From assembly GCA_003221455.1 (NCBI GenBank), contig QHRX01000008.1, positions 37,111-71,653 of the forward strand: a stretch of 34,543 nucleotides of DNA, given 5' to 3'. The notes under the pieces are model-generated. The model was not told the origin of the DNA. It did no database searches and saw only the letters and a program-made list of their open reading frames with translations. Of the stretch, positions 5,063-27,888 are shown in pieces. Position numbers and translations under genes: made by a program. The first letter of the stretch is position 1, and each line of letters opens with the position of its first letter. The DNA is from Candidatus Rokuibacteriota bacterium (lineage in GTDB: Bacteria > Methylomirabilota > Methylomirabilia > Rokubacteriales > CSP1-6).

Positions 5063-5135
5063 CACGGACATCGGGAGGCCGACCGCGCCGCGGCGAGGGC
5101 GTGATCGGCATCCTATCGCGACGAGGAGGACACAC

Positions 5136-5642: not shown

Positions 5643-5763
5643 CTTTCGCCCGCGGGGCCCACCCGCCGGAGACCAACTCGCCGAGCGTCAACCTTCGACG
5701 CCGGCTCGGACCCCTCGTCGAGGCATTGTCAGACGCGACACGGAGGCCGTGGGGTCAGGGCGC

Positions 5764-12401: not shown

Positions 12402-15110
12402 TCAGGTCTCGGCCGTGGCACGACGGAGGTCGAGCGCGACCATGGCCATCAGCTCTTCGTCGCTCATCTCGGTGAGCAGCGTCTCGCCGCCGCCCTCTAG
12501 CACCCCGCGCACCATCGCCTGTTTGTCCTCGATGAGCCTGTCGATGCGCTCCTCGACGGTGCCGCGGCACACCAGCTTGTGCACGAGCACGTTCTTGTGC
12601 TGGCCGATGCGGTAGGCGCGGTCGGTCGCCTGGTCCTCGACCGCGGGGTTCCACCATCGGTCGAAGTGCACCACGTGCGAGGCGGCGGTGAGGTTGAGAC
12701 CAGAGCCGCCCGCCTTCAGGGACAGCACGAAGAACGGCACGGTCGCGTCCTCCTGGAAGTGCCGGACGAGCCCGCCCCGGTCCTTCACGGGCGTGCTGCC
12801 GTGGAGCAGGAGCCCGGAACGGCCGAACACGCCCGCCAGGAAGGCGGCCAGCGGCTCGGTGGCCTCGCGGAATTGCGTGAATACGAGTACCTTCTCCTGC
12901 TTCGCGGCCACCGCCTCTACGATCTCGCGCAGCCGCGCGAGCTTACCGCTTCCAGCCTCGTCCCACGCGCCTTCGCCCAACCAGTGCGCGGGGTGGTTGC
13001 AGATCTGCTTGAAGCGCATGAGATACGCGAGCACCAGGCCGCGCCGCTCGATCCCCTGCGTGAGCCCGGCGATGGCGCGCTCCAGCTCGTCGACCGTCTT
13101 CTGGTAGAGCGCGGCCTGCGGGCCGGAGAGCAGGCAGAACGCCTTCACCTCGGTCTTGTCAGGCAGGTCGGCCACGATGGAGCGGTCGGTCTTGAGCCGG
13201 CGCAGGAGATAGGGCTGGACCAGGCGGCGCAGGGGCGCGTAGCTCTCGTCCGGGCGGGCGGCCAGCCGCTTGACGAACGCGGAGAACTCGCGCGCCGATC
13301 CCAGCAGGCCCGGGTCGAGAAAGTCGTAGATCGACCAGAGATCGCCGAGACGGTTCTCGACGGGCGTGCCGGTGAGCGCGATGCGCGCGTGCGCCTTCAG
13401 CGCCTTGACTGCCTGTGTTTGCCGGGCCCCGGGATTCTTGATCGCCTGCGCCTCGTCGAGGATCGCCAGCGACCACTCCCGCGAGCGGAGCGTCTCGACG
13501 CGCGCCAGCGTCCCGTAGGTGGTGATGACGAGATCGGTGCCGCCGAGATCGGCGCCGGCCAGCTCGGCCAGCTCGCGCGTGGGCATGGCCGAGGGATGGG
13601 CCACGAGCGTCGTCAGCGACGGCGCAAAGCGTTCGATCTCGGACTGCCAGTTGGCGAGGAGCGACGCCGGCGCCACGAGCAGGTGCGGCGGGTTGCCGCC
13701 CCGCGCGCGCCGCTTGTGCAGCAGCAGGAGCGCCAGCACCTGGATGGTCTTGCCGAGCCCCATGTCGTCGGCCAGGCAGACGCCGAGCCGCAGCGACGAG
13801 GCGAAAGCGAGCCACGCCACGCCGACTTTCTGATAGGGCCGCAGCGCGCCGCGAAAATCGGCGCCCGGGTCGGCCGCGGCGAGCCCGGCCGGCCCGCGCA
13901 ACCCCTCGAGCGTGCGCGCGAGCCAGGCGCCGGCCTCCACGCGTGACCAGCCCTCGCCCGCCGCCAGCGCCACGGCCCCGTCGTCCGTCCGGGCGGCACC
14001 GGCGAGCAGCCGCATGCCCTCGAGGAACGAGAGCCCGCCCTCCTCGGCCTCGCGCCGCACCCGCTCCCAGTGGGCGAGCACTTCGCGCAGCCGCTCGCGG
14101 TCCAGCTCGACCCATTGCCCGCGCAGCCGTACCAGCCCGTCCGACGAGGCCAGGAGCTGGCGCACCTCGGCCGCCGTGAGCTTCGCGTCGCCCAGCGCGA
14201 TGGCGACCGAAAAGTCGAGCAACGCGTCCATGCCGACTGCGCTCGGCTTCTTCTCGCCCACGCGCACGGTGACCTCGGGCCGCGGCGGCCGCCGCGGGCG
14301 CCACCAGTCGGGGACACGCACGACCAGCCCGGCCGCCTCGAAGGCCGGGATGGCGCGCAGGAAGCGGTGCGCCTCGGCGGGCGTCCACGCCGTCGCCTGG
14401 TAGATCGCGCCGGAGTCGACCAGCTCGCCCAGCCACGCGTTCTGCTCCGCGGCCCGCTGGAGCGGCACCAGGAGGTGGAGCAGCCCCTGCCGGTCGCCGC
14501 GCGCGGAGGACTCCTCGAGCGCGCGCGCCAGCGGACGATGCTGCACCCTGCCCCCGGCGCCCGCGCGCACCGCGTAGGTGGCGAGGAAGGCGAACGGGTG
14601 CTCCTCGTCGCCGCGGTTCTCCGCCAGGTGCAGGCACACCTTGCCGACGACGTGCCACGAGGGGTGGCGCGCACTCAGCCAGTCCCCGACCGCACCGCGA
14701 TGGGCGCGGATCTCCTCGGCGAACGCGCGGTTGAGGTCGGCCCAGCGCGCGGCAACCCAGTCGGCGTCGACGTACTCGCCGCCGTCCATGGGCGGAACGG
14801 CGCCGGCCACCCGGCCGCGCTCATCCGGGGGGCAGTCGACTTCGACCCGCTCGCGCCGTTCCTCGAGATCGGGCACGGCACAGAGTCGGGTCACGAACGC
14901 GCGACCGAGGTCGCGTAGGAACGCAAGTGGAGGGGCGAGCGACGCGTCGAGCTCGGTCGCGCCGAGGTCGAGCAGGGCGTGTCCGGGCCCACGCGCAAAG
15001 GCGCGAGCGACCCGGTCACGGGCCGCGACGGACAGGCCGTCGCTCGCCTCGTCGTCGCCGGGTGCCGTGTCCGCGAGCAGCGCGCCCGACGGCAGGATGG
15101 CAACCCGCAT
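12402..15110 (-). CDS. SNF2-family DEAD/DEAH-box helicase
   Basis: ATP-dependent DNA translocase of about 902 aa starting at ATG 15110 (MRVAILPSGALLADT, the usual start in this family; the frame runs 12 codons further upstream). The N-terminal about 400 residues are the bacterial SNF2-associated region. The helicase core has motif I DDMGLGKTIQVLAL (about residue 450), motif II LAILDEAQAIKNP (about 552), motif III ALTGTPVENRLGDLWSIYDF (about 575) and motif VI ATDRAYRIGQHKNV (about 833). It is co-operonic with the SWIM protein. Substrate DNA and partners are unknown; this gene pair is widespread in actinobacteria and other soil bacteria. Confidence 0.95.
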   Translation of the reverse strand: MRVAILPSGALLADTAPGDDEASDGLSVAARDRVARAFARGPGHALLDLGATELDASLAPPLAFLRDLGRAFVTRLCAVPDLEERRERVEVDCPPDERGRVAGAVPPMDGGEYVDADWVAARWADLNRAFAEEIRAHRGAVGDWLSARHPSWHVVGKVCLHLAENRGDEEHPFAFLATYAVRAGAGGRVQHRPLARALEESSARGDRQGLLHLLVPLQRAAEQNAWLGELVDSGAIYQATAWTPAEAHRFLRAIPAFEAAGLVVRVPDWWRPRRPPRPEVTVRVGEKKPSAVGMDALLDFSVAIALGDAKLTAAEVRQLLASSDGLVRLRGQWVELDRERLREVLAHWERVRREAEEGGLSFLEGMRLLAGAARTDDGAVALAAGEGWSRVEAGAWLARTLEGLRGPAGLAAADPGADFRGALRPYQKVGVAWLAFASSLRLGVCLADDMGLGKTIQVLALLLLHKRRARGGNPPHLLVAPASLLANWQSEIERFAPSLTTLVAHPSAMPTRELAELAGADLGGTDLVITTYGTLARVETLRSREWSLAILDEAQAIKNPGARQTQAVKALKAHARIALTGTPVENRLGDLWSIYDFLDPGLLGSAREFSAFVKRLAARPDESYAPLRRLVQPYLLRRLKTDRSIVADLPDKTEVKAFCLLSGPQAALYQKTVDELERAIAGLTQGIERRGLVLAYLMRFKQICNHPAHWLGEGAWDEAGSGKLARLREIVEAVAAKQEKVLVFTQFREATEPLAAFLAGVFGRSGLLLHGSTPVKDRGGLVRHFQEDATVPFFVLSLKAGGSGLNLTAASHVVHFDRWWNPAVEDQATDRAYRIGQHKNVLVHKLVCRGTVEERIDRLIEDKQAMVRGVLEGGGETLLTEMSDEELMAMVALDLRRATAET

Positions 15111-15203
15111 CGTTCGCAATCTAAGCGCGAGCGCCGCCTCGCGCAAGCGCCCGGCGTGCGTTTTCCCGGCGCCGCCTCAGCGTGGCGTCATACAGGGAAC
15201 GAC

Positions 15204-15350
15204 CTAGCGGCCGTACCGGCGATAGATTCGGAAGTCCGCGTCGGTCGTAAGTATGATCAGACCCGCGAGCGTCTCGCTCATCCTGACGAGGCCTGCATCG
15301 GCGAGGCTCATCTTCGTGTTGGCCGAGGAAAACCGCTCCGTTACTGATTT
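15204..15350 (-). pseudogene. PIN-domain (VapC-like) C-terminal remnant
   Basis: Translating the minus strand gives KMSLADAGLVRMSE followed by ILTTDADFRIYRRYGR, the characteristic last third of a PIN-domain ribonuclease (usual form MSLADACLVRM...TTDSDFRVYRRHGR). The N-terminal two thirds are missing: similarity stops at the tRNA fragment at 15353. A TAG at 15204-15206 interrupts the end; the next codons read VVPCMTPR, the expected tail, so a Gln codon has probably mutated to stop. It is a gene cut by the left end of the tRNA-anchored island. Confidence 0.7.
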
Positions 15351-15352
15351 CT

Positions 15353-15397
15353 TGGTGCGCCTGGCAGGAATCGAACCTGCGACCCTCGGATTAGAAG
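15353..15397 (-). repeat. tRNA-Arg 3'-half copy, left att site of island A
   Basis: 45 nt matching the intact tRNA-Arg at 24357-24401 from the CCA end to the anticodon, with one difference in the T-loop. Identity ends exactly at GGATTAGAAG, i.e. within the anticodon loop, after which the sequence diverges. It lacks the 5' half, so it cannot fold as a tRNA. This is the pattern of an attachment site left by an integrase that recombines in a tRNA anticodon loop. Confidence 0.85.
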
Positions 15398-15506
15398 GCC
15401 CGGACACACGGCGAGGCCCCTCGGTGAATGTCTGATTTACCGAGGGGGTTCCCCTTTGTCGCTTGACTGGAGTGAGGGCAGTTTTGGGTGGGTTGGAGGC
15501 GGTCGC

Positions 15507-15530
15507 GGCATAACAACGGGCATAACGGAG
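15507..15530 (+). repeat. 24-bp repeat, left copy near island A end
   Basis: GGCATAAC, two bases, then CGGGCATAACGG and a final xG: matches 19747-19770 at 21 of 24 positions. Each copy itself contains GGCATAAC twice, 12 bp apart. The left copy is 110 bp inside the left att copy. It could be an integrase arm-binding site or a remnant of the same integrase tail. Confidence 0.55.
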
Positions 15531-15676
15531 CGAGGGAAATGCGGCAAGACGGAGCGTCGCGGTGAGACTCAGGAGCTTGCGCGGGCGGCCGGCGGTGGGC
15601 AATCAAGGAGACCGATGGAGCCACCGATGGTGGCTGAGGCGATGCCCGGCCCTCGCGCGCGAACAGAGACAACCGT

Positions 15677-15910
15677 TCAGGGGCTTTGCAGAGCGAGGTC
15701 TCGCGAGAGTCGCAGTTCGCCCAGGTGTGTCCCCGCATGACGGATTGCCTCGACAAGGGCCTCACGGCGCGAGATCTGATGGATCTCGCGGGTGCCCCAC
15801 AACTCCCTTTCCGGAGTGATCCGCTCCTCAAGCGAGGCCGGCTTCAGCGAAATAAGAGCGGTTTCGAGCTCGGCCGAGAGCTGGTCGACGCGCGTCCTCG
15901 GCCGAGAGAG
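15677..15910 (-). other. Coding-like minus-strand segment without a start
   Basis: A 77-codon open stretch on the minus strand that looks like protein rather than shadow: it contains VDQLSAELETALISLKPASL and ISRREALVEAIRHAGTHLGE, acidic/amphipathic helices with a balanced composition. It is closed upstream by a TAG and has no convincing start codon or ribosome site. I do not recognise a family; it may be a gene remnant of the island. The rest of 15398-16312 shows nothing else. Confidence 0.35.
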
Positions 15911-16312
15911 CTATATTAGCTGGCCGTTCGACATCCGCGCACCTCGCTGTTCGGCTCGGATCAGAAGCTATAGGAACCTTGACCCGACGCCTCGCTCTAA
16001 TTATAAGAGGAGCGAGGATGCCCCCGGGATGGCCCGTCAAATGCCTGTCGGTAGCATTCGCAGTTCAGAACTGCTTCTCGCGACGGGCTCGCACGGACTG
16101 AAGAAGGAGCGGACCAGAGGGCGAAGAGGCGCACCCGCGGGGCGGTTTTGGAGGAGCGAGGTGATCTCGTCCCGTTGCCTCGGCGGATGGAGCGTCGGCT
16201 GGAAATCTGACCCGAGCCCGGAGCTCTGTCCATCTGAGTAACGAATAATAACGCTCGGTATCAAGCGCAGCTCTGGTCCATGACGTCGCGCCGATCCTAT
16301 CTCGGCAGCTCC

Positions 16313-16402
16313 ATTTCGCGAAAGAGCGAATCGCACATTAGCGAACAGATCTGCCTCCGACGTGATATCATTTCGCTAAACAGCGAATCGCTGATCTGCG
16401 AA
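16313..16402 (+). promoter_or_regulatory. Duplicated palindromic operator upstream of the ATPase gene
   Basis: Two 33-bp units, 16313-16345 and 16370-16402, are identical at 27 of 33 positions and exactly 57 bp apart. Each unit has a 16-bp inverted repeat (TTCGC-N6-GCGAA; in the second copy TTCGCT-N4-AGCGAA) followed by a further GCGAA 10 nt downstream. The second unit ends 16 nt before the start codon, just ahead of the GGAGG ribosome site, so a bound protein would block transcription or translation. Confidence 0.75.
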
Positions 16403-16418
16403 ATACGGAGGTCAGGTA

Positions 16419-17678
16419 ATGGCGCCGGCCCCCTCAGACAACCCCTTTGCGATCGGGACCCTCGTGACGGGGGATGAATTCGCCGACCGGGCCGATGAGC
16501 TTCGACTGCTCGAGGACGAGCTCCCGAGCGGCGGTCGGATCTTCCTCCTCGCGTATCGGCGGTACGGGAAGAGCTGCCTGATCTGTGAAGCTCTCCGACG
16601 CCTCGAGAAGAACACTGGTGCGATTGCCGTGTACGTGGATCTCTACAAGGCGAGTTCCGAACGAGAGTTCTGGGAACTCATGATCAACCAGCTCGTGGCC
16701 GGCAGCCGTGAACCGGTCAAGCGCGTCGTGGATTGGCTGAAGTCCTTGGGGGGGACCCTACGGCCGACATTTTCCGTGGACCAACAGAGCGGCATGCCGA
16801 CAGTCACCCTGGGTCCTGTTGCGACGTCCGCCGAACTCGGGCGCCTACGGGAGCGAGCGCTGGCGCTTCCCGGCGAGATTGCTGCGCGAGGACGGCACCC
16901 GGTTATCGTCGCCTTCGACGAGTTCCAGCAGATCCATGAGTTCGACGGGGGGCGGCTTGAGAAACAGATGCGCGCGGCCTTCCAGCAACACCGCCAGGTC
17001 GGATACGTGTTCGCAGGTTCGAAGCCGCACCTGTTGCGACAGATGGCCGAGGATCCCAATGCCGCCTTCTATCGTTTCGGCCGTCGACTTGAATTGGGTC
17101 CAATCCCTGCCGAAGCGTGGTTCGGATATCTCAAACCGAGGTTCGGTAAGGGCCGTATCCAGGTATCGGGCGACGCGCTCCGTCGTATCGTCGAACTCGC
17201 AGAAGGAATTCCCTACTACGTCATGCGAGTCTGCCGCCTCCTGTGGCCGCGCGGACTCCGAAGACAGACTATCGACATCAGCGAAGTGGATGCCGCATTC
17301 GGCGAGATCGTGGACGAAGCGGGCGAGATCTTCGCGCCGACGTGGGAAGAGCTGACCCTTGCGCAGCGACGGACGGCCGCGGCACTCGCGGAGGGTCGGG
17401 GCCACGAAATCTTCGCGGAGGCTGTTCGTAAGGTCTACGAGCTCGGCGCGCCGTCCAGCGTTGCTCGGAGTCTTGAACGACTTCGGGACTTGGGTCTCGT
17501 CGGTCATGAAGGGCCGACGACCACGGGTGCGCGCTACCGGATCGTTGACCCGGGCTTCGTCGCGTGGGTGCGCCGTCAGCGTCCGAGGGACCCGATAGTT
17601 TCTGGCGCTCGCGCTCCGACCTCGGCTCAAGAACAGGGATCTCAGCCGAAGCGTGCCCGTCGCCGGGGGAGGTTATAG
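16419..17678 (+). CDS. Arch_ATPase-like AAA/STAND ATPase
   Basis: Protein of 419 aa from ATG 16419, with GGAGG seven bases upstream. The N-terminus NPFAIGTLVTGDEFADRADE leads to a Walker A variant LLAYRRYGKSCL (about residues 43-54; the first Gly of GxxxxGKS is Ala), Walker B VIVAFDEFQQI (about 164-173) and a sensor-1 segment YVFAGSKPHLL (about 197-207). The C-terminal part (about 330-400) looks like a winged helix with ARSLERLRDLGLVGHEG. This is the DUF234/archaeal-type ATPase family often found as single mobile genes; its cellular role is unclear. The last 30 residues are Lys/Arg-rich. The inverted-repeat operator upstream suggests self-regulation through the winged helix (inference). Confidence 0.85.
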   Translation: MAPAPSDNPFAIGTLVTGDEFADRADELRLLEDELPSGGRIFLLAYRRYGKSCLICEALRRLEKNTGAIAVYVDLYKASSEREFWELMINQLVAGSREPVKRVVDWLKSLGGTLRPTFSVDQQSGMPTVTLGPVATSAELGRLRERALALPGEIAARGRHPVIVAFDEFQQIHEFDGGRLEKQMRAAFQQHRQVGYVFAGSKPHLLRQMAEDPNAAFYRFGRRLELGPIPAEAWFGYLKPRFGKGRIQVSGDALRRIVELAEGIPYYVMRVCRLLWPRGLRRQTIDISEVDAAFGEIVDEAGEIFAPTWEELTLAQRRTAAALAEGRGHEIFAEAVRKVYELGAPSSVARSLERLRDLGLVGHEGPTTTGARYRIVDPGFVAWVRRQRPRDPIVSGARAPTSAQEQGSQPKRARRRGRL

Positions 17679-18400
17679 GGGTTCCCGGTCCCAGGACTTT
17701 GGATCATCGTCCTCATCCTGCGCGGTAGACGACATGACTCATTTCGGGGCATAATCAAGCTGACCCTAGCGACCCAGCGAGACGTCTCGACCGCGACTGT
17801 GTAACCGGGCCGGCGAACCATTGCATCCCTCCACCAAATTCTCCTCAAGGGCGAGACGGAATTGCTCCGCTCGCGCTTCTCACCGCCAGAGCGAGTGCGC
17901 GACGTGCTGCGCTTGCGATGACCGGTGACCAGGCAAGCAGCCCGAATCCGGAGGCCGATCCTGACCACGATTTACGGATCACGCCGTGCCGGAATTGGAA
18001 CGCCGTAAAGAAGATTCTCGGTAAGGGGCGGAAGGTCGCCCTTCTCGCATCGAAAACCGAGATCCACGTGTGGCCGACCGATACTCTGAGCCCCTCTGAT
18101 CGATGCCTCTGCGGCGCCCGCCGCTGGTAGGTGGGCTGCAGCGGTAACATCAGCGGTGTACCTCGCGTGGCACCCTACCTGGGTGAGAGGACGGCGCACG
18201 GCTGGTGAGCCGAGGGGATCGGAAATTCTTTTCAGCCTGCGCCCTTTCCCTGCAGATCCTGTGGAAATTGCTGCGCATAATTCGACGCCAAGTCCCCGGC
18301 GAATTGGCGCTTCGGCTGGTGGTACGGTCCTTGCTGCGCTCAAATGGGGACCCTGATCTGGCTGGCCATGTAGGTGCTACGACCAGCACGGAGGCGCACC
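17679..18400. other. Intergenic stretch in island A
   Basis: About 720 nt with no supported gene. A 70-codon ATG frame at 17918-18130 (CRNWNAVKKILGKGRKVALL in its centre) and an adjacent open piece ending near 17920 (ASLHQILLKGETELLRSRFS) look mildly protein-like and may be remnants; neither matches a family I know. The 3' end holds the ribosome site of the PEP-CTERM gene. Confidence 0.35.
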
Positions 18401-18574
18401 ATGAACAAAGTGTCGATTCCCGCAATTGCTGCTCTCGTCGGGATACAGATCGGCCTGGTCGTCCGCGCGGCCCATGCCGCGGTCGTCCCGGCGCCAGAGC
18501 CAAGCAGCCTCACGCTGCTCGGCGCCGGTGCCGCCGTGGTGGCGATTGGCGCCTGGTGGCGCAACCGCAAATAG
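18401..18574 (+). CDS. Minimal PEP-CTERM protein (signal peptide plus sorting signal)
   Basis: A 57-aa protein from ATG 18401, preceded by GGAGG. Residues 1 to about 25 form a signal peptide (MNKVSIPAIAALVGIQIGLV, cleavage near AHA). Only about five residues later begins a full PEP-CTERM signal: PAPEPSSLTLLGAGAAVV, a hydrophobic helix and WWRNRK at the end. PEP-CTERM tails direct exported proteins to an exosortase (EpsH/XrtA type) for processing. Almost no mature domain would remain. The next gene is a membrane hydroxylase 51 nt downstream, in the same direction. It could be a remnant of a longer protein, but the intact ribosome site and both ends argue against decay. Confidence 0.8.
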   Translation: MNKVSIPAIAALVGIQIGLVVRAAHAAVVPAPEPSSLTLLGAGAAVVAIGAWWRNRK

Positions 18575-18625
18575 CCGGGAAGCCTCAATCCGTCTGCTGC
18601 TTGGAGAGAGGCAGCACGCGTCTGC

Positions 18626-19447
18626 GTGTTGGGCCGGGGCGCGATCCACGTGCTTCTTGATGGGCTGATACGAAACAGCTGGTTTTTCGCTCTCGTCGGC
18701 GTCGTCGGCCTCTGGGAGCTCGCCGCGCCCCGCGGCGTACTCACCGCTCGTCGTAGCCTCCGCTGGCCGACCAGCTTCACGCTCGGTCCATTCAACGCCT
18801 TGCTCGCCACTGTTCCACTGGCCCCGTTCGCGCTCGCCATTGCGCTGACGGAACGCGGTTGGGGCCTCTCGACTACCACCAGGCTACCCCTGTGGGTCAC
18901 GATTGCGGTCTCGGTGCTCCTCCTCGACCTGCTTTTTTATTTCCAGCACCGTGCCTTCCACGCGGTGCCGGTGCTCTGGTCCGTTCACAGGGTGCATCAC
19001 GCCGACGTGGACTTCGACTACACCACGGCCTTCCGTTTCCATCCCATTGAGGCGTTGCTGACGAATGGCACGGCGCTCGCCGCGGTCACAGTATTCGGCC
19101 TGCCCGCCTTCGCTGTCCTCGTCCACCAGACGCTCGCCACGGGCATGACGATCTTCGAGCACGCCAACGCTCGTTGTCCTTCAGCGGTCGAGGTTCGTCT
19201 CCGCCGGATCTTCGTCACTCCCGACATGCATCGGATCCACCATTCGACGGGCGCGCCAAGCACCGACAGCAACTTCGCGACGATCTTATCGTGCTGGGAC
19301 CGCTGGCTCGGGACCTACCGGTCACACGCGACGAGAGGTCGAGACGGTATGGAGATCGGGTTGACCGAATTTCGCGACCCAAAATATCTCACGCTTCCGT
19401 GGACGCTCGCGATGCCATTTCTTCGCCCTCGGCGGGTCCAAGGGTGA
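18626..19447 (+). CDS. Sterol desaturase/fatty acid hydroxylase family membrane protein
   Basis: Integral membrane di-iron enzyme of the fatty acid hydroxylase superfamily, 273 aa from GTG 18626 (a GTG at 18650 is an alternative; neither has a strong ribosome site). The histidine boxes are HRAFH (about residue 107), HRVHHADVDF (about 120) and HRIHHS (about 205), with the usual FHPIEALLTN between. Hydrophobic helices lie near residues 18-36, 55-75 and 88-106. It would hydroxylate or desaturate a lipid or sterol-like substrate in the inner membrane; the substrate is unknown. It lies just downstream of the PEP-CTERM gene within island A. Confidence 0.9.
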   Translation: MLGRGAIHVLLDGLIRNSWFFALVGVVGLWELAAPRGVLTARRSLRWPTSFTLGPFNALLATVPLAPFALAIALTERGWGLSTTTRLPLWVTIAVSVLLLDLLFYFQHRAFHAVPVLWSVHRVHHADVDFDYTTAFRFHPIEALLTNGTALAAVTVFGLPAFAVLVHQTLATGMTIFEHANARCPSAVEVRLRRIFVTPDMHRIHHSTGAPSTDSNFATILSCWDRWLGTYRSHATRGRDGMEIGLTEFRDPKYLTLPWTLAMPFLRPRRVQG

Positions 19448-19641
19448 CGTCCGTGACGGCCCACCAGTCGCACGGTCCTCGTCATTCGTTGCTGTCAGGG
19501 TCCGAAGCCCGAGTCGGTGCTGATCTCCAAGAGCCTACAGCTCCCACGGCGGCTCGACAGCCATCGGGAGTTCGAGCACCGCCGGCCCGTCGGCGTCGAA
19601 CGCCTCCGCGAGCGAGCGTGGGAGCGTGTTCACGGTGCTGA

Positions 19642-19797
19642 GCGGCCACCGTCGAAAAAGATCAGATTTGCGGCTACGCGGACTCCGGGCGCCAAGTCCC
19701 CACCGTCAGCCCCGCTGACCTCAAGGAGGTCGCCCAGAAGCTCACGGGCATAACCGCGGGCATAACGGCGGGGCCCACGCCAGACTCGCAGTCGTAA
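19642..19797 (+). pseudogene. Probable integrase C-terminal remnant, right end of island A
   Basis: A 51-codon open piece ending in a stop 15 nt before the tRNA fragment at 19812. Its centre, TVSPADLKEVAQKLTG, aligns with the tail after the catalytic Tyr in tyrosine recombinases (compare NPEHLRGAAARLDG at 24200-24240), and it ends with an ITAGITAG repeat. No catalytic residues remain. The assignment depends on position next to the att copy and on the similarity to the second remnant. Confidence 0.45.
19747..19770 (+). repeat. 24-bp repeat, right copy near island A end
   Basis: Partner of 15507-15530 (21 of 24 identical, same orientation). It lies 42 bp inside the right tRNA-derived boundary and within the integrase-like tail, where it encodes GITAGITA. 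Confidence 0.55.
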
Positions 19798-19811
19798 GTC
19801 TCTGATTTTCA

Positions 19812-19855
19812 GGGGCGCCTGGCAGGAGCCGAACCTGCGACCCTCGGATTAGAAG
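19812..19855 (-). repeat. tRNA-Arg 3'-half copy, junction of islands A and B
   Basis: 44 nt matching the intact tRNA-Arg from the acceptor end to the anticodon, with two differences (a G for T near the discriminator and a T-loop base). Identity ends at GGATTAGAAG, the same base as in the copy at 15353-15397. No 5' half follows. Confidence 0.85.
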
Positions 19856-20161
19856 TGGAAGGGCGGTGATGAGCCGTCCCTCCAATCTTCTCGCTTACTT
19901 CCGCGTAACTGCGCGAATCGCCCGCCCTTCTTGCGTTGATCGCTCACGACACAGACGTATTCTCGTGACAAGCGCGGATGCGAAAGCACGGCGATTCGTG
20001 GGGTCGTTCAGCGCAAGATAGCGCAAGAGAGTTTGGCCATCTGGAAGAGCCCGAGGTCTCACGAGGAGGATCGTCCGCCTCCGCGTAGACGCCCACTTGA
20101 CGCAGCGCCTCTTTGAGCAAGTTCTTGGTCGCACCGAGCCATCGCCCCAGACCCTTTCGAC
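19856..20161. other. Decayed sequence, left part of island B
   Basis: No intact gene. The minus strand shows disconnected protein-like pieces in different frames (WLGATKNLLKEALRQVGVYA near 20100-20150; LLRYLALNDPTNRRAFASAL near 19970-20040), compatible with a frameshifted remnant of unknown family. Confidence 0.35.
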
Positions 20162-20319
20162 TTGCCGCCGGAGGTCCCCTCGTTCACCCTCGAGAGCAAC
20201 GACGTCGAAGACGGGAGCCACTGGACCCCGGAGTTCGCCTGCTCGCGCCTTGGCGCCAGGACATCTCGCCGGAGCTGCACTGGTCGAGCTTCCCGGTTCA
20301 TATCGGAAATTCCGGGTGA
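20162..20319 (+). pseudogene. YbhB/YbcL (PEBP-like) fragment, frameshifted
   Basis: VPSFTLESNDVEDGSHWTPE followed in another frame by DISPELHWSSFP reproduces the first 50 residues of phosphatidylethanolamine-binding/YbhB proteins (usual form FTLTSxDIxDG...NISPELxWSGFP). The DPDAP core that should follow is absent, and the second frame stops at 20319. A truncated, frameshifted gene. Confidence 0.65.
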
Positions 20320-20436
20320 ACCGAGCTTGTGGAGCTTCGACGCGCTGGAATCTCGGCCCGACTTTCACGTTCTTGCGGAAAAAATGCTCCAGAGGTATCG
20401 CCGGAAGCCGATCTTCCGTCCCAACGGCGAATCGCG

Positions 20437-20675
20437 ATGGTTCGGACGGGGCGCAATGGACGCCGGATCGACAGGCTTGCCCTCGAGGAGCACGAGCTGT
20501 TCGACGGAGAGTTGCAGGGGGGCCGACTGCGAGCAACTCCAGCGACTGGAGGTCACCCTCGACCAATGCTGGGACTTGCTCCTGCCAGCCCCGGGCCCGC
20601 CGGGCGGGCGGCCTCGACCCCGACCGGCTGGCGTCGGGGACGAGGGGACTGTCTGTCGAAGGCTACACCGACTGA
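20437..20675 (+). pseudogene. DUF2630-like small protein, multiply frameshifted
   Basis: Three frames must be joined to recover the family: RRIDRLALEEHELFDGE, then QLQRLEVTLDQCWDLL, then RARRAGGLDPD and finally VEGYTD before the TGA at 20673. The segment LDQCWDLL...RRARRAGGLDPD...VEGY is distinctive for DUF2630 proteins (about 80 aa, function unknown). At least three indels show decay, in line with the neighbouring PEBP fragment. The 20676-21120 stretch after it shows nothing but the promoter and GAGGAGG site of the next operon. Confidence 0.7.
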
Positions 20676-21120
20676 CCGAGCTCACGCAACAAGGAGGTCT
20701 AAGTCGAATCGGAATCCTGGACAGGGAGTATGGAACTGAGCAGCGGGGGGCGGTGCGGGCGCGGTCTCGTTGCTCGAGGTGGTTGGAGTGACCAAGCTCT
20801 CGGAAGCAAGGGGCCCGGACCGGTGCCAGGGTTCGGCAGGCTGACTGTCGTCGACGTGTTTGGGGAGTGTCAACCAGCTGGCCGACCGGACGGCCGGCTC
20901 GATGGACCCCGTCACTCGGGCGACAGTCGATTCATCGTCGTGATCCAGACTTCGTGGCGCTCGGCGCAGGCATCCCCGCTGCGAGCCTTCGACAGAGGAG
21001 GCAGGAGCGGCATGGGCGTGGTCACTCATTTGATCAGACCAAGGGCACGCACGCGTGAAGCGGGTGGCGAGCCGCCCTCCGCCGGTTCGCTGACCACAAC
21101 ACGAACGAGAGGAGGGCGCC

Positions 21121-21894
21121 ATGAGTACGAACTCGACTGACGAGGGACTGTTAACCGGTCGACGCTTGTTTCTAAGGCAAGTCGCAACTCTCGCCGGTAG
21201 CGCGTCACTTGCGCCAAAAGTCATCGGTGCCGCAGCTGTGGCGGCGGGCAGCGCGATCGCCGCGCCAGCCTCAGCGCAGCCGGCCGGCGCGCCCATCGCG
21301 TCTGCGCCGGCGTTCGGTTATGAATCGCTGGGCCCTGACGAGGCGAGTTTCGTTGAAGCGATGGTCAACGTCATGTGCCCGGCCGATAACCTTACACCCA
21401 ACGGCGTCGACTGCGGCCTCGCCGTATTCATCGACCGGCAACTCGCCGGCGGCTTTGGCACAGGGGATCGTCTGTATATGCGCGGCCCCTGGAAGCAAGG
21501 GAAGCCGCAGCTCGGTTACCAATTGCCCCTCACCCCCGACCAATTCTTCAAAGCGGGCGTCGCGGCAGCCAATGCCGCGTGTAGAGGCAGGTTTGACAAA
21601 GACTTCGATCAGCTGGAGCCCGCCGATGCGGATGCTTTCCTACGCGACCTGGCCGGCGGCAAGATCAGTGACATACGCGTTCCTCTTGGCCAATGGTTCA
21701 ACGAACTCGTCTACCCATTGTTCACGCAGGCCTGTTTTGCCGATCCGATGTATGGCGGCAATAACGGCAAGGTGTTTTGGAAGATGATCGGCTATCCCGG
21801 CCTTCCCGCCACACACACGCGAGATATGGTGAACTTCCGTGGCAAACCATACCCAGGGGCCAAGGACCCGAAGGCAATCCAGGACTTCAGCTGA
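21121..21894 (+). CDS. Gluconate 2-dehydrogenase subunit 3 family protein (Tat-exported)
   Basis: Small subunit of a periplasmic FAD dehydrogenase complex, 257 aa from ATG 21121 with GAGGAGGG upstream. A Tat signal GRRLFLRQ (Arg14-Arg15) with a hydrophobic stretch and ASAQPA cleavage region is present. The mature domain has family features FVEAMVNVMCPADNLTPNG (about 76-94), GVDCGLAVFIDRQLAGG and WFNELVYPLFTQACFADPMY. In this family the small subunit carries the Tat signal and its partner is exported with it; the GMC subunit downstream has none, which fits. First gene of a three-gene operon. Confidence 0.93.
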   Translation: MSTNSTDEGLLTGRRLFLRQVATLAGSASLAPKVIGAAAVAAGSAIAAPASAQPAGAPIASAPAFGYESLGPDEASFVEAMVNVMCPADNLTPNGVDCGLAVFIDRQLAGGFGTGDRLYMRGPWKQGKPQLGYQLPLTPDQFFKAGVAAANAACRGRFDKDFDQLEPADADAFLRDLAGGKISDIRVPLGQWFNELVYPLFTQACFADPMYGGNNGKVFWKMIGYPGLPATHTRDMVNFRGKPYPGAKDPKAIQDFS

Positions 21895-21909
21895 GAGAAG
21901 GGACGTGTC

Positions 21910-23670
21910 ATGGCGACGACAATGAAAAAGCGCACCGTAGTCATCTGCGGTGGCGGTCTGACCGCGGGCCTCATCGCGCGACAACTCACTGCAAAGAATG
22001 TCGACGTACTCGTCTTGGAGCGTGGCTACGACCACACCCGGGCAGCCGAGGCCAAGTTGCCGAACCAGCGCGATGAGCTGCGTTGGGCGACGCATGCGGG
22101 TCTTGCCCAGGACTGGGCCGTTCAGACGTACACATTGCGTCATGGGCGCAACGAGACCGCGCTGCCGGTCCGGCGGATGGAAGCCTTCCTTCCCGGGGAA
22201 GGTATGGGCGGCGCGGCAAACCATTGGAACGGACAGACGTGGCGCTGGGCCGAATACGATCCGACCCTGCGGACGCGTCTCGAGGGTCGGTACGGCAGGA
22301 AGGCAATCCCTGCCGACATGCCGATCCAGGATTGGGGCGTCACGTACGGGGAGATGGAGTCCTATCACGACCTGTTTGAGCGGCTGTTCGGGATCGCTGG
22401 CAAGGCTGGCAATCTGCGTGGACAGATCCAAGCCGGTGGCAACCCCTTCGAAGGGCCACGACAGAACGAATATCCGCAGCCTCCATTGGAGACGACAGAG
22501 GCCGGAGTGATTTTTACTCGCGCTGCCGAAAATCTCGGCTACAAGCCATTTCCGATGGCGGCGGCGAATTCGCCGAACGCATACACGAATCCCGATGGAA
22601 TGAAACTCGGCCAATGCCAGTACTGTGGCCACTGTGAGCGCTTCATCTGCGAAGCGAGTGCAAAAGGAAGTCCAGAAGTTCTCTTGTTTCCGATGCTGCT
22701 CAAAAGGCCAAGTTTCGAGCTGAGGTTACGTTGTCATGTCTTGGAGGTGGAGTACGATCGTCAAGCAAAGCGAGTACGAGGAGTGCGTTACGTCGACCTC
22801 ATGACGGGTGAAGAGTACGAACAGCCGGCCGATATTGTCGTGCTCGCCTCGTTTACTATGTCGAACACCAAGTATCTGCTGATGTCGGGAATTGGCCAGC
22901 CGTACGACCCGACGAACGGGAGTGGCGTGGTCGGCAAAAACTTTTGCCATCAGATGATGTCGGGTGTGAACGTATTCTTCAAGGATCGCTGGATCAACCC
23001 ATTTCTCGCTTCCGGGGCATCTCAGACGTGCGTCGACGAGTTCAATGAAGACAACTTCGACCATACGGGGCTCGGGTTCTTCGGCGGCGGGTACATCTAT
23101 TCGAACGTGACCAACGGCCGGCCGATCGCCTCGCGCCTGGTTCCGCCTGGCACCCCGGCATGGGGAAGCAGTTGGAAGCAGGCAAACGCAGATTGGTATG
23201 CGCACAGCTTCGCGATCACGGCTCACGGCAGCTGGTACCCGCACCGGGAAAATTACCTCGACCTCGACCCCACGTATACAGATGCGTACGGTCAGCCGCT
23301 CGTGCGGATGACCATGGATATCCGAGATAACGAGCGGCGCATGTCGGAATACTGTACCCAGAGGGCCGAAGAGATCGCCAAAGGGACCGGCGCGACGATC
23401 GTCGCGTCGGGGACGCCCCGCCGGGGACCGTACGATTCGCGAGTGTACCAGACGACCCACGTGACGGGCGGGACCATCATGGGCGCCGATCCGGGTACGA
23501 GCGTCGTGTCGCCGCACTCGCAGCATTGGGATGCTCAAAACCTATTTGTGGTTGGGGCGTCAGTCTACCCGTTCAACGCGGGTTATAACCCGACGGGTCC
23601 CCTTGGGGCGCTCGCCCTTCGCCTTGGCGACGATATGGTTCGATATATCGACCGGCCACAGATTTTGTAG
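21910..23670 (+). CDS. GMC oxidoreductase, FAD catalytic subunit with Cys cluster
   Basis: Catalytic subunit (586 aa) of a gluconate/fructose/glucose dehydrogenase-type complex, 15 nt after the small subunit. The N-terminal FAD motif is VVICGGGLTAGLIARQL (about residues 10-26). A four-cysteine segment QCQYCGHCERFICEAS (Cys236, 239, 242, 247) matches the insert that holds a 3Fe-4S cluster in FAD-glucose and fructose dehydrogenases. The C-terminal catalytic pair is His517 in THVTGGTIMG and Asn560 in GYNPTGPLGALALRLGDD. No signal peptide; export is by the Tat partner. The substrate is probably a sugar, sugar acid or alcohol, not deducible further. Confidence 0.93.
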   Translation: MATTMKKRTVVICGGGLTAGLIARQLTAKNVDVLVLERGYDHTRAAEAKLPNQRDELRWATHAGLAQDWAVQTYTLRHGRNETALPVRRMEAFLPGEGMGGAANHWNGQTWRWAEYDPTLRTRLEGRYGRKAIPADMPIQDWGVTYGEMESYHDLFERLFGIAGKAGNLRGQIQAGGNPFEGPRQNEYPQPPLETTEAGVIFTRAAENLGYKPFPMAAANSPNAYTNPDGMKLGQCQYCGHCERFICEASAKGSPEVLLFPMLLKRPSFELRLRCHVLEVEYDRQAKRVRGVRYVDLMTGEEYEQPADIVVLASFTMSNTKYLLMSGIGQPYDPTNGSGVVGKNFCHQMMSGVNVFFKDRWINPFLASGASQTCVDEFNEDNFDHTGLGFFGGGYIYSNVTNGRPIASRLVPPGTPAWGSSWKQANADWYAHSFAITAHGSWYPHRENYLDLDPTYTDAYGQPLVRMTMDIRDNERRMSEYCTQRAEEIAKGTGATIVASGTPRRGPYDSRVYQTTHVTGGTIMGADPGTSVVSPHSQHWDAQNLFVVGASVYPFNAGYNPTGPLGALALRLGDDMVRYIDRPQIL

Positions 23671-23693
23671 GAAACCCGCCGGAGGGCCCCTGT

Positions 23694-24071
23694 ATGCGAC
23701 GTCGAATGTCAGTGGCCGTGGGCGCGCTACCCCTGTTTCTCCTCTCTCTTTGTGGAGGGCCGGCTCATGCGCGGGACACCAGTAAAGGCAGGGAGGTGTA
23801 TAGCCTCTGCGGCGCGTGTCACCCAACCGACTCGAGTAATGGTGCGGGGCCGGGCCTAGCCGGCATCGTTGGACGCAAGGCGGGCACCGCGGCAGGCTTC
23901 CGTTACAGCAGAGCAATGAAGAGTTCTGGCATCATCTGGGACGACAAGACCCTCGATGCATATATCGGGGAACCGCAGAGAGTCATTCCCGGCAACGTTA
24001 TGCCATTCTCCGGCATCGCGGATCCTGGCGCGCGCGCCGATTTAGTTGAATACTTGAAAACGCTCAAGTGA
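23694..24071 (+). CDS. Periplasmic cytochrome c (class I), GMC complex partner
   Basis: Cytochrome of 125 aa with a signal peptide (about 1-26, cleavage after AHA), haem motif CGACH (Cys39, Cys42, His43), and axial Met103 in GNVMPFSGI. The spacing GPGLAGIVGRKAG and the MPF ending are those of the mitochondrial-type c2/c550 group. It is 23 nt after the GMC gene and is the likely electron acceptor. Typical gluconate/fructose dehydrogenases use a tri-haem subunit; here a single-haem soluble cytochrome takes its place. Confidence 0.93.
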   Translation: MRRRMSVAVGALPLFLLSLCGGPAHARDTSKGREVYSLCGACHPTDSSNGAGPGLAGIVGRKAGTAAGFRYSRAMKSSGIIWDDKTLDAYIGEPQRVIPGNVMPFSGIADPGARADLVEYLKTLK

Positions 24072-24182
24072 ATTTAGCCCACATGTCCGATTTGAGACGG
24101 GAAGGGACTGGCCCATAAGAGCACTTCGCGCCTCCCGTGCCGAGAACGCCCTTTATGTCGCCTATCGCCCCACGGCTTCCTC

Positions 24183-24331
24183 GCAATGGTCATGCGGTAC
24201 ACGCACCTGAATCCAGAGCATCTCCGTGGTGCCGCCGCTCGTCTCGATGGCACTCTCGCCGGCGCCGTGCCTGCCGCCCGCCCTACCGGAGATTCAACGC
24301 AAATCTCAACGCAAGAGGCTGCCGGCCTAGT
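24183..24331 (+). pseudogene. Tyrosine recombinase (phage integrase) C-terminal remnant
   Basis: The frame at 24186 reads MVMRYTHLNPEHLRGAAARL, the segment that carries the catalytic tyrosine and following helix of phage-type integrases (usual form RYAHLSPEHLR). The upstream catalytic R-H-R domain is not present; the bases before 24183 do not continue the protein. The tail (STQISTQEA) runs on toward the tRNA without a stop until 24398. It marks the right end of island B, where an integrase gene beside its tRNA target is expected. Confidence 0.7.
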
Positions 24332-24356
24332 GGGGGTGTCTCAGAAGTCCTTGTAT

Positions 24357-24433
24357 TGGTGCGCCTGGCAGGAGTCGAACCTGCGACCCTCGGATTAGAA
24401 GTCCGATGCTCTGTCCAACTGAGCTACAGGCGC
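24357..24433 (-). tRNA. tRNA-Arg (anticodon TCT)
   Basis: Complete cloverleaf on the minus strand: acceptor GCGCCTG/CAGGCGC, D-arm GCTC...GAGC, anticodon stem TCGGA/TCCGA with loop CTTCTAA, T-arm GCAGG/CCTGC with TTCGACT, discriminator A and an encoded CCA (24357-24359). The anticodon TCT reads AGA. It is the only full-length copy in the window; three partial copies are annotated. An AT-rich block (TATAAAATAATA, 24438-24449) directly upstream on the minus strand is the probable promoter -10 region. Confidence 0.95.
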
Positions 24434-24735
24434 GTGCATATAAAATAATACGTTACGTGTTGCGCCGCGCGGCATTCTTGCCGTCGCGCTGACTTTGAGC
24501 TGAGAGCTTAGCCCGGAAACCGAACCCAAAGCTCGCGGCTCGCTGTTTGGCTTCCGCCCTCTCTGTACCGCTCGCACCCCGCGACCTTGTGCAACGGCCC
24601 GCCTCCGGCCTGCAATGATCGGGCGAGCAGCCCAACGAACGCGACGGCTCGCCTTTGTCCGCCGCGATGCCGGGGTGGCGCCGTCGAGGTGGCACGGGCA
24701 CAGGCGCGGGACATGCGCGAGGATGGCGGCCTCGC
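24434..24735. other. Intergenic region upstream of tRNA-Arg
   Basis: No gene seen. It contains the tRNA promoter region and the first 70 bases resemble 27554-27640 (shared GCGCGGCA and CGCTGA blocks). Confidence 0.5.
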
Positions 24736-25470
24736 TCAGCTGTCGCCAACCACCATCTTCTCGTACAGCGCACTCAGCGTCTCGTCGATCCCCGCGCACG
24801 CCCACACGTCGAAGAAGGGCGAGCCCTGCAGGGCCAGGAACTCCCGCCTGTCACGCTCCTTCCTCTGCTCCTCGCTCTCGCCGGGTCTCGCCGCCTGCTG
24901 ATGTCCGCGAATGCGGTCCTTGTGATAGATGGCCGGGTACTCGATGTGGCGGTGGAGCTCCCGGAAGTCCTTCGCATAGAACACCGCCACGGGCACAGAC
25001 GCCCACTCTGCTCCGTTCTTCTTGTTCATGAACTCGAGCATGAGGTCGTGGTTGGCGTCGGGGGCGGCGGCGGGATCGGGACGCCGCCTGCCGAGAACCT
25101 TCTTGCCGTCCCGGTTGAAGATACGTAGCTCCATACCGCCCGCCTCGGACAACCGCGCGAGAACGGGCACGTCGCGACGGCAATCCGACGACCAGTCCTC
25201 GGAAATCACGAGGATCTTCGCGGGCCCGTTTGGCTGCGCCACGAGCCACTTGATCGCGGCCGTCTGGTGGTCGCTGAGGCGCGCCCTCGCGTAGCGCTCC
25301 CGGAGGACCGCGCTGTTGTCCTTGCGCGGAGCGCTGAACGACCCGCCATCGGGGAAATAGCCACCCCAGGCCTCGCGTGCGAGATTCTCGGGGCTGCCGG
25401 CGTATCGTACGTACTCGTCGAAGGTCATGCCCTTGGCGAACCGCTCTGCGTTGACGACGCTTTTAGCCAC
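24736..25470 (-). CDS. Thioredoxin-fold family protein
   Basis: Protein of 244 aa started at GTG 25470, which has AAAGGAGG just upstream; the longer frame (25569) lacks a ribosome site. The central segment KILVISEDWSSDCRRDVPVL (about residues 83-102) resembles the thioredoxin_9-type motif EAWCGDC, but only the second cysteine remains (WSSDC), so it cannot act as a two-cysteine oxidoreductase. ASVPVAVFYAKDFRELHRH (about 155-173) holds the cis-Pro loop. No signal peptide. The C-terminus is rich in charged residues. Function unknown; it stands alone between the tRNA and the divergent sigma-factor gene. Confidence 0.8.
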   Translation of the reverse strand: MAKSVVNAERFAKGMTFDEYVRYAGSPENLAREAWGGYFPDGGSFSAPRKDNSAVLRERYARARLSDHQTAAIKWLVAQPNGPAKILVISEDWSSDCRRDVPVLARLSEAGGMELRIFNRDGKKVLGRRRPDPAAAPDANHDLMLEFMNKKNGAEWASVPVAVFYAKDFRELHRHIEYPAIYHKDRIRGHQQAARPGESEEQRKERDRREFLALQGSPFFDVWACAGIDETLSALYEKMVVGDS

Positions 25471-25774
25471 GCTCTCCTCCTTTGGGTCTCCGGTCCCTTG
25501 TCGCCGGCCACAGCGTATCGTAGAACGCGCTCGGGCCGAGGGTCCGACATAGACGCGCTTCGAAAGCATGTGGCCAACTGGGCAGCACTACGCGGATGGG
25601 GCGTTACGTAGCCCGCTCGGCAGCCTGAGCACGTGAGGACCGGAACTCGGCCTCCGTGGGGGGATTCCCCCTCGCTGATTCGGGTCTCCACCTGATTGGT
25701 CGGCAACAGGGCTCCGCGTAGTGTCGACTCCGAAGACGCATAGGTGTCTCCGTTGAACGGGGGGTAGTGGTCAC

Positions 25775-27265
25775 GTGATGACATTCAAGATACCCGAGAT
25801 GAACGTCGACCCGGCCCCGGGCGCGCCGACAGCGTTCGTCTCCGGAGAGGCGGCCGAGAGCCCACATCCCGTTCTCGACGATTCCGAAGAGAGCCCAGAG
25901 CTAGCCAGCGAACGAACCTTCACGCCACTGAAAGGCGAGGACGGGGTTCGCTTGTACCTCAGGGAGATCGGCAAGATCCCGCTGCTGACCGCGCAGCAGG
26001 AGGTCGAGATCGGCCGGCGGATCGAGATCGGCCAGATCGCGCTGCGCCGGGCACTCGCCGGTATCCCCATGGCTCTGAGTGCCCTCCTCCAGGTGGGGGA
26101 CCGCCTCCGCCGGGAGGAGATCCCGGCCGACGATGTCATTCTGCAGGAAGGGGAAGAGCTGGACGGTGCCGAGGTCAAGTGTGTCCTCCGGGCGTTCTCG
26201 CGCGTCCGCTGGCTCGAGCGGCAGATCGCGCGTCCGAGACAGTCGACGCGCCTCAAGCGGCCGTCTGCCACGACCCGGCGCAACGATACAAGGAGGATCG
26301 CGGCGGCCCGAGACGCGATCCAGAAGATCGTCGCCCGGATGCCGCTCAAGCCCGCGCTCATCGACCAGCTGGTCGCCGACGTCCGCCGTCGCTGCGAGCC
26401 TATCGAGCGGCTGTCCGCTGACGCCCGGCAGGCGCCGAACCCGGCGGCCCGGCTGGAGCTGCGGAGGCTCGAGCGTGAGGCGAGGCTGCCGCGCCGGCAG
26501 CTCGAGGCCATGCTGGCGGAGATCGCCAAGCACGAGCGCGAAGTCCGCCAGGCCAAGAAGGAGCTGATGGAGGCGAACCTCCGCCTCGTGGTCTCCGTGG
26601 CCAAGCGCTACCTGCGGAGCGAGCTATCGCTGCTCGACCTCGTCCAGGAAGGGAACATCGGCCTCATGAAGGCGATCGATCGCTTCCAGTACCGCCGGGG
26701 CTTCAAGTTCTCCACATACGCGACCTGGTGGATCCGGCAGGCGCTCAGCCGGGCCCTCGCCGATCAGTCGCGGACCATCCGGATTCCCGTCCACATCGTC
26801 GAACAGCTCCACCGGATCTCGCGCGTAAACCGTACCATGGTGAACGAGCTCGGGCGGGATCCCACGCCCGAGGAGCTAGCGCAGCATGCGGGGGTCCCGG
26901 CGAATAAGGTCCGAATGATCCTAGAGTCCTCACGGCGGCCGCTCTCGCTCGAGAGTCCCGTCGGCGGAGACTCGGAGCTGGGCGACTTCCTAGAGGACAC
27001 GTCAGCGGGCTCACCGGACGACGCCATCCTGAGCCAGGATCTCATGACACGGGTCGAACGGGCACTGGCCATCCTGTCCCCAAAGGAGAAGGAGATTCTC
27101 CGCCTCCGCTTCGGGATGGGCGCCGAAGGCGAGCGCACGCTCGAGGAGATTGGTCTACGCTTCGCGGTGACACGCGAGCGCATCCGCCAGATCGAGGTCA
27201 AGGCGCTGCGCAAGTTGCGCCATCCGCGCACTGGCCGAATCCTCCGAGCCTTGGTCGAGCGCTGA
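25775..27265 (+). CDS. rpoD: Sigma-70 family RNA polymerase sigma factor (RpoD-like)
   Basis: Primary-type sigma factor of 496 aa (GTG 25775; ATG 25778 is equally possible). Region 1.2 is [20 protein letters not shown] (about 50-69); an Arg-rich non-conserved linker spans about 90-260; region 2 has [32 protein letters not shown] and [20 protein letters not shown]; region 3 [20 protein letters not shown]; region 4 [20 protein letters not shown] and [18 protein letters not shown]. Region 1.1 is absent: only about 45 unrelated residues precede region 1.2. It may be the housekeeping factor or a group 2 paralog; lack of region 1.1 and the isolated location favour a paralog. Confidence 0.93.
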
Positions 27266-27888
27266 TGGCGCCGAGGCCGCCTGATACACCTCTCGACTAG
27301 AGCCCTTCCTCGGGCCTCGAGACACTCTCAGGAGGGCTATGCGGTCGTCGACTCCACGCGAATCTCGGCCCGCCCTCGAATCCTGCGCCCCACGAGGGCT
27401 TTCCCCATCTGCACATCGTCTCTTCGTCGCGAAGTTACAAGATCCGGGTCCCCGAGCCTCGAGCGTCGCTCCTTGAGTTTTGAGTAGACGCCGCGGGAAT
27501 GGTCTGAGCCGGCGTAGAAGTCCGATGCCCTGTCGAGCCGAGCCGAAGGCGCGTCCCTATAAATAGGCTAACGCCTTGCACGCTGCCCAGCGCGGCAGTT
27601 TTGAACCTACGCTGATCGTGCGCCGGGAAGCGCCGCCCCGAACTGGCGCCGCCGCTGACGGTGTCGATCCGTCCCCCTCGCGGCCAGCGGCCCCTGTCCG
27701 GTCGCCCTGAGCAAGAACCGAATCATCGCGAAGACTCGATGGAATCAGATCGTCGACCTTGTTCGCCGGCCGACCCGCACGGGCACCTCGTCCGTCTCGC
27801 TGTGTCCCCGCGCGAGCTCTTTCGCCTCGCTCTCAAGGAGCTCACAGAACATGGGTTCCGCGATGCTCCCCCTGGTCCCTCGACCCCA
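27266..27888. other. Intergenic region with tRNA remnant
   Basis: No gene seen except the tRNA half copy annotated at 27515-27553. Short frames in 27661-27888 are antisense to, or shadows of, the next gene. Confidence 0.5.
27515..27553 (-). repeat. Decayed 5' half of tRNA-Arg
   Basis: TAGAAGTCCGATG at 27515-27527 and the following bases up to GGCGCG (27553) match the intact tRNA from its anticodon to its 5' end with several changes in the D-arm. The 3' half is missing and the break is again at the anticodon. The flank beyond (CTATAAATAG at 27558-27567, then GCGCGGCA) resembles the tRNA promoter side at 24434-24480. Confidence 0.7.

Follow-up and report, generated by a model that had tools for sequence, protein, structure and literature searches.

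The tRNA-Arg(TCT) gene and its displaced halves

The window analysed here, a stretch of 34,543 nucleotides from a Candidatus Rokuibacteriota genome, carries an intact tRNA-Arg(TCT) gene on the minus strand (24357-24433), and partial copies of this gene lie on both sides of it. A repeat search of the window returned copies of one repeat at 15344-15397, 19802-19855, and 24348-24401, with start-to-start spacings of 4458 and 4546. Two displaced 3′ halves of the tRNA gene (15353-15397 and 19812-19855, both on the minus strand) were found in this way and again in a search of the whole genome (4.4 Mb in 336 contigs), where they gave E-values of 2.4e-16 and 3.6e-14, far beyond chance. The latter marks the junction of two segments, islands A and B, and the former, at the outer end of island A, would be the original chromosomal half. 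On the opposite side of the intact gene, a decayed displaced 5′ half (27515-27563, minus strand; 82% over 49 nt; E = 7.4e-7 genome-wide) lies at the outer end of a third segment, island C.

A preliminary description of this DNA had reported the intact gene and its two 3′-half copies, which ARAGORN, the repeat search, and the genome-wide E-values confirmed, and had placed the break of the copies inside the anticodon. The block shared by the 3′ halves ends in ..GGATTAGAAG, so that in the tRNA sense it starts with CTTCTAATCC. Because CTTCTAA (24395-24401, minus strand) is the complete 7-nt anticodon loop of tRNA-Arg(TCT), the break lies at the 5′ edge of this loop instead, and the half breakpoints point to the loop as the probable strand-exchange (overlap) region. 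Displaced 3′ halves start at CTTCTAATCC, displaced 5′ halves stop at CTTCTAAT or within 1-2 bases of it, and this one anticodon-loop breakpoint is found in more than 20 half copies across many genomes.

Two other calls fall in the flank outside island A. An ARAGORN call of tRNA-Leu(TAG) at 15082-15155 on the minus strand shares sequence with the beginning of the open reading frame for the SNF2 helicase and is probably a false positive. The gene at about 15207-15341, previously called a PIN-domain gene, matched neither Pfam nor NCBIfam.

Islands A, B, and C

The segments are described as remnants of two types of element. Type I elements would bring in the 3′ half of the tRNA gene and come to lie downstream of the tRNA; type II elements would bring in a promoter and the 5′ half and come to lie upstream of it.

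Island A (15398-19811), assigned to type I on the 3′ side and older by position, was recognized by its composition, its arm-type repeats, and a homologous end in relatives. Its GC content is 0.632, against 0.691 and 0.682 in the flanks, and its tetranucleotide distance exceeds that of every host window tested. Just inside the island and beside the crossover lies a hairpin, CCCCTCGGT..ACCGAGGGG (15417-15448, plus strand; fold z = -3.7), and a homologous hairpin comes after displaced 5′ halves in relatives. An arm-type unit, GGGCATAAC, occurs in pairs at 15507 and 19746, forming a left arm, GGCATAACAACGGGCATAACGG (15507-15528, plus strand; 1 of 1000 shuffles), and a right arm, GGGCATAACCGCGGGCATAACGG (19746-19768, plus strand), and GGCATAACnnCGGGCATAACGG is common to both ends. 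The right arm falls within the C-terminal remnant of an integrase gene, a 51-aa open reading frame (19642-19797, plus strand) that reads VSPADLKEVAQKL.. / VSPADLKEVAQKLTGITAG.. and ends in ..VSPADLKEVAQKLTGITAGITAGPTPDSQS before the stop; it aligned to the intact SPADL-type integrase of a relative with a score of 61, against 42 for the best of 1000 shuffles. The first ~110 bp inside the left end are homologous to element ends at two loci in relatives (L113 and L117; E = 4e-12 and 7.5e-9), and this end is also homologous to ends fused with 5′ halves in two genomes (G026 and G076). The cargo, all on the plus strand, comprises a 419-aa AAA/ATPase_2-like protein (16419-17678; PF01637, E = 6.8e-6), a 57-aa PEP-CTERM microprotein found in Pfam and NCBIfam searches (18401-18574), and a fatty-acid hydroxylase family protein (18626-19447; PF04116, E = 7.6e-28).

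Island B (19856-24356), also assigned to type I on the 3′ side and younger by position, was delimited by its composition, a homologous left end, and matched arms. It is the most atypical segment in tetranucleotides, lying outside every host window tested, and its GC content is 0.615 (flanks, 0.69 and 0.68). Its arm-type unit, TCARCGCAA, occurs in tandem at 20008 and 24294, as a left arm, TCAGCGCAAGATAGCGCAA (20008-20026, plus strand), ~152 bp from the crossover, and a right arm, TCAACGCAAATCTCAACGCAA (24294-24314, plus strand). The element at locus L124 in a relative has an arm at a similar distance, and the first ~110 bp inside the left end of B are homologous to the element ends at L064 and L124 (E = 8e-15 and 1e-6). 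The C-terminal remnant of the B integrase, MVMRYTHLNPEHLRGAAARLDG.. (24102-24290, plus strand), was detected (E = 3.7e-8) with a profile made from the integrases of relatives and was the sole match of this profile in the window. The same tail footprint is found beside the tRNA-Arg(TCT) gene of one relative (G006) and, upstream of the window on the same contig, beside tRNA-Arg(TCG). The latter gene belongs to a tRNA-Arg(TCG)/tRNA-His pair ~7 kb upstream of the window (L008 9825-10177, contig C212), in which a type I integrase tail adjoins the Arg gene; it is a second docking site on this contig.

The plus-strand cargo of island B consists of a gluconate 2-dehydrogenase subunit 3 family protein (21121-21894; PF13618), a GMC oxidoreductase (21910-23670; PF05199/PF00732), and a cytochrome c (23694-24071; PF00034), and its closest relatives are in Proteobacteria. 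In a scan of named genomes, the GMC oxidoreductase was 76-78% to proteins of Proteobacteria such as Inquilinus and Bradyrhizobium; among family members, a homologue was found in only 6 of 56, at no more than 51%.

Independently of the repeats, the integrase tails beside the tRNA-proximal ends, the distinct arms, the homologous ends in relatives, the atypical composition, and the affinity of cargo B all indicate that A and B are what is left of two separate integrations, each by a different integrase. The arm repeats differ between the two islands, so A and B are not two copies of one element. The earlier proposal of serial integration at the tRNA gene by elements that are now immobile is supported and best accounts for A and B. 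The integrase tails noted before two of the sites were borne out, by the profile for B and by the alignment score for A. The cargo calls also held for the hydroxylase, the dehydrogenase subunit, the GMC oxidoreductase, the cytochrome c, and the PEP-CTERM microprotein; the ATPase_2 match is weak and below the curated Pfam cut-off. The near-equal size of A and B is probably a coincidence, since comparable spacings in relatives range from 0.85 to 6.9 kb, and any significance of it was dropped.

The preliminary description recognized two islands at the tRNA gene and missed what lies on its other side. Island C (24434-27514), assigned to type II on the 5′ side with its integrase lost, is marked out by the displaced 5′ half, an upstream match in a relative, and an arm. 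Its right arm-type repeat, TCAGCTCAAAGTCAGCGC (24486-24503, minus strand), is directed at the 5′ end of the tRNA, and the window contains exactly two strict arm tandems, one to either side of the tRNA and each directed at it. The 73 bp upstream of the tRNA match, at ~80%, an element end that adjoins tRNA-Arg(TCT) in genome G070, with a score of 84 against a maximum of 33 in 1000 shuffles, and this match takes in the TCAGCTCAAAGTCAGCGC arm pair. Island C encodes a Thioredoxin_9 protein (24736-25569, minus strand; Pfam) and an extra sigma-70 factor of the ~500-aa type (25775-27265, plus strand). Other sigma-70 copies lie elsewhere in the genome, one 68% identical (C208:5851-7260) and a more distant one on contig C291. 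The composition of island C is near that of the host and not clearly atypical, no integrase profile match was obtained within it, and a left arm was looked for and not found. The reading of C as a third island, the mirror image of A and B, is therefore the least certain part of the interpretation.

An alternative explanation would hold that there are two islands only, both on the 3′ side, that the copy at 27515 is a chance pseudogene, and that the similarity to G070 reflects a conserved native promoter. The missing integrase and left arm of C and its host-like composition would fit such an explanation. However, the 27515 copy begins at the crossover, as other displaced 5′ halves do, the upstream similarity to G070 includes the arm tandem, and upstream regions differ at loci where synteny with tRNA-Pro is conserved. 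These observations make a two-island locus unlikely and favor island C as a separate element.

Elements at tRNA genes in related genomes

The survey of relatives covered 57 genomes of the family, all fragmented drafts, and genomes with fragments were counted by hand from search results. The tRNA-Arg(TCT) fragments fell into two groups, 3′ halves on the one hand and 5′ halves accompanied by their upstream region on the other. By this count, displaced 5′ halves were present in 12 of the 57 genomes (G000, which is the genome of the window, G019, G025, G026, G060, G064, G065, G067, G069, G070, G075, and G076) and displaced 3′ halves in 8 of 57 (G000, G005, G018, G030, G065, G068, G070, and G076).

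The 5′ halves stem from elements with an integrase that reads toward the tRNA from upstream. In G065 (locus L129), the intact tRNA gene is flanked by two convergent integrase genes whose C-termini face it: one faces the 3′ end of the tRNA (4617-5710, plus strand; one stop or frame break) and the other, which is intact, faces the 5′ end (7006-5876, minus strand). In G069, a displaced 5′ half (C91) and the end at the intact tRNA (C579) share an exact 23-base arm, CGCGGGCACGTTTTCGGGCACGT; the element, read across two contigs, has an intact integrase gene whose stop codon is a UAG inside the rebuilt tRNA. At L095 and L014, type II integrase frames cross the promoter region of tRNA-Arg(TCT) and stop at a UAG from tRNA residues 8-9. 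Type II elements extend beyond tRNA-Arg, as a case at tRNA-Ser(CGA) in G065 demonstrates (L268 155-4571, G065:C17): a perfect 43-nt displaced 5′ half lies 4.3 kb off on the same contig, and a degraded integrase with stops lies between it and the intact gene. Inverted insertion of type I elements was considered for such loci and rejected, as the convergent integrases and matched arms reveal a separate type II class. Intact type I and type II elements, which the preliminary description had suggested looking for, are present in relatives.

In a genome with several tRNA-Arg paralogues, the half copies might also have arisen by segmental duplication or tRNA gene decay of the ordinary kind, with no integrase involved. 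The common anticodon-loop breakpoint in so many copies and genomes, the integrase tails and arms that border the islands, and the intact integrase elements in relatives make this explanation highly improbable compared to site-specific integration. Equally hard to credit is a single island of ~9 kb that gained its internal half copy later by duplication, for, adjacent and similar in size as A and B are, each has its own integrase tail and arm pair, and the element ends in relatives that match the left end of A are not those that match the left end of B.

The side of the tRNA from which these elements act appears to be variable. One genome (G005) combines a displaced 3′ half on the 3′ side of the tRNA with an integrase tail on its 5′ side. 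The integrase tree intermixes 5′-facing and 3′-facing enzymes at three places: the G069 enzyme (L095) groups with the tRNA-Val enzyme of the genome of the window with support of 1.000, an enzyme of G017 (L023) groups with those of G070 and G000 with support of 0.978, and the clade of L129R and the tRNA-Ser enzyme is sister to the L064 clade with support of only 0.736. Together with the homology of the A end to ends fused with 5′ halves in G026 and G076, the mixed tree suggests that the side used has probably changed repeatedly.

An empty tRNA-Arg site, which the preliminary description had proposed to seek in related genomes, was not found among the relatives, no circular form was seen, and the flanking genes were not syntenic. 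Homologues of the SNF2 helicase reach 92% identity, and no tRNA lies in the ~1.5 kb flanks examined around them; thioredoxin homologues are located elsewhere. The state of the locus before integration therefore has to be inferred.

Intact tRNA-Arg(TCT) was not found in the assemblies of G025, G026, G064, G067, G075, and G076, all of which have a displaced 5′ half. In G076, the 5′ and 3′ halves are on separate contigs (C176:40385 and C99:10636), and the other assemblies have the 5′ half only. Perhaps the gene is missing from these assemblies because the locus is often near contig ends. The result counts against an integration model, which needs an intact gene to exist. For the loci with a 5′ half only, a group I intron in the anticodon loop was rejected, as no 3′ half lies downstream within the examined stretches. 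Chimeric tRNAs with divergent 3′ halves were likewise set aside, as ARAGORN detects no tRNA there.

A proposed two-sided docking site

Mobile DNA often inserts at tRNA genes. In nearly all of the cases described, the 3′ half is swapped and the host promoter stays in charge. The tRNA-Arg(TCT) gene of the window is very likely a two-sided docking site for small tyrosine-recombinase elements, of which A, B, and C are fixed remnants. The attachment site of such an element would have the order integrase 3′ end with tandem arm sites, tRNA half, 7-bp anticodon-loop crossover, hairpin, and second arm, the second arm site lying ~110-150 bp from the crossover. Crossover in the anticodon loop would join the half brought by the element to the resident half, so that an intact tRNA is restored and the resident half is pushed to the far end of the element. 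Newcomers would land beside the intact tRNA and displace older elements outward; by this topology, B would be younger than A. In the window, the 3′ side would have received first A and later B, and the 5′ side would have received C, with the working integrase lost in all three. The intact tRNA itself is attributed to different sources as a mosaic, with its 5′ half and promoter from island C and its 3′ half from island B.

The anticodon stem-loop has a dyad symmetry that fits the core-site layout of tyrosine integrases (PMC8371274); this symmetry probably accounts for the two-sided use, as it would permit both orientations. A broader proposal, advanced tentatively, is that in this family the anticodon stem-loop acts as a reversible-orientation platform, that integrase lineages switch sides repeatedly, and that the promoter and either half of the tRNA gene can all be exchanged, the working tRNA being routinely reassembled from parts of different elements. 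The genomes in which only separate halves were assembled may represent an extreme form in which the tRNA gene is left split.

Compared to the 3′-fragment islands of the Islander class (PMC4383910), islands A and B show several similarities. First, an intact tDNA is accompanied on its 3′ side by cognate 3′ fragments in the same orientation, with the islands intervening, and each island bears matching attachment features at its two ends. Second, a tyrosine integrase and a crossover in the anticodon loop are involved. However, the integrases in the window are cut down to C-terminal tails, the islands are only 4.4-4.5 kb, and the array extends to the other side of the tRNA. No conjugation, relaxase, or phage structural genes were found among the Pfam matches of the main open reading frames in A, B, and C. 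All three are now immobile remnants and not intact members of a known island class.

Island C, which has a displaced 5′ half in the same orientation upstream of the tDNA, resembles the 5′-fragment islands (PMC4383910) and the pTN3-like archaeal integrases (PMC8371274), in which the element likewise brings the promoter and 5′ half and the resident 5′ half is displaced upstream. Compared to known 5′-fragment islands, the present ones recur at one tRNA in the 12 genomes counted above and use the same crossover as the 3′-half elements. Unlike in pTN3, attP does not interrupt the integrase gene, and in two relatives this gene ends with a stop codon within the rebuilt tRNA. By analogy only, the array recalls an integron in its stepwise growth of small cargo units at a fixed site; in contrast to an integron, every element came with an integrase of its own, and a tRNA gene that is used from both sides serves as the platform. 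The window showed no integron integrase.

Each of these ingredients is known. Islander lists 3760 islands with a 3′ fragment and 159 with a 5′ fragment among 3919, as well as 125 tandems (PMC4383910), and a review of archaeal systems considers bacterial use of the 5′ half to be seldom seen (PMC8371274); tandem tRNA islands and 5′-fragment islands are thus established. The part that appears to be new is a site that is routinely two-sided, with one crossover and with 5′ halves displaced as often as 3′ halves. No description of such a two-sided site at a single tRNA and a single crossover was found in the mainly open-access literature searched. Such a site raises the questions of what sets the orientation of an integrase when its target is nearly symmetric and how a tRNA gene copes when its regulation passes to mobile elements. 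The locus also suggests that very small islands with 1-3 cargo genes can accumulate at one place and become fixed.

Several smaller loci were noted in the same searches. In G005 (L064 7225-10029, G005:C21), a compact element of 2.75 kb lies between two tRNA-Arg(TCG) 3′ halves; it has an intact integrase of 361 aa (PF00589), matched GTGCCGGTTTTGGTGCCGGTT arms, and two small open reading frames that resemble a putative toxin-antitoxin pair. At tRNA-Arg(CCT) in the genome of the window (L081 1419-1650, G000:C139), the region upstream of the 5′ end holds a type II integrase tail, MTLRYAHQSPDRLRDAVASLEEFSTKSAQ, together with TCAGCACAA arms. In G068 (L121 547-1435, G068:C215), two tRNA-Arg(TCT) 3′ halves lie 0.85 kb apart, a spacing too short for an integrase gene and cargo, and this may be a miniature or deleted element.
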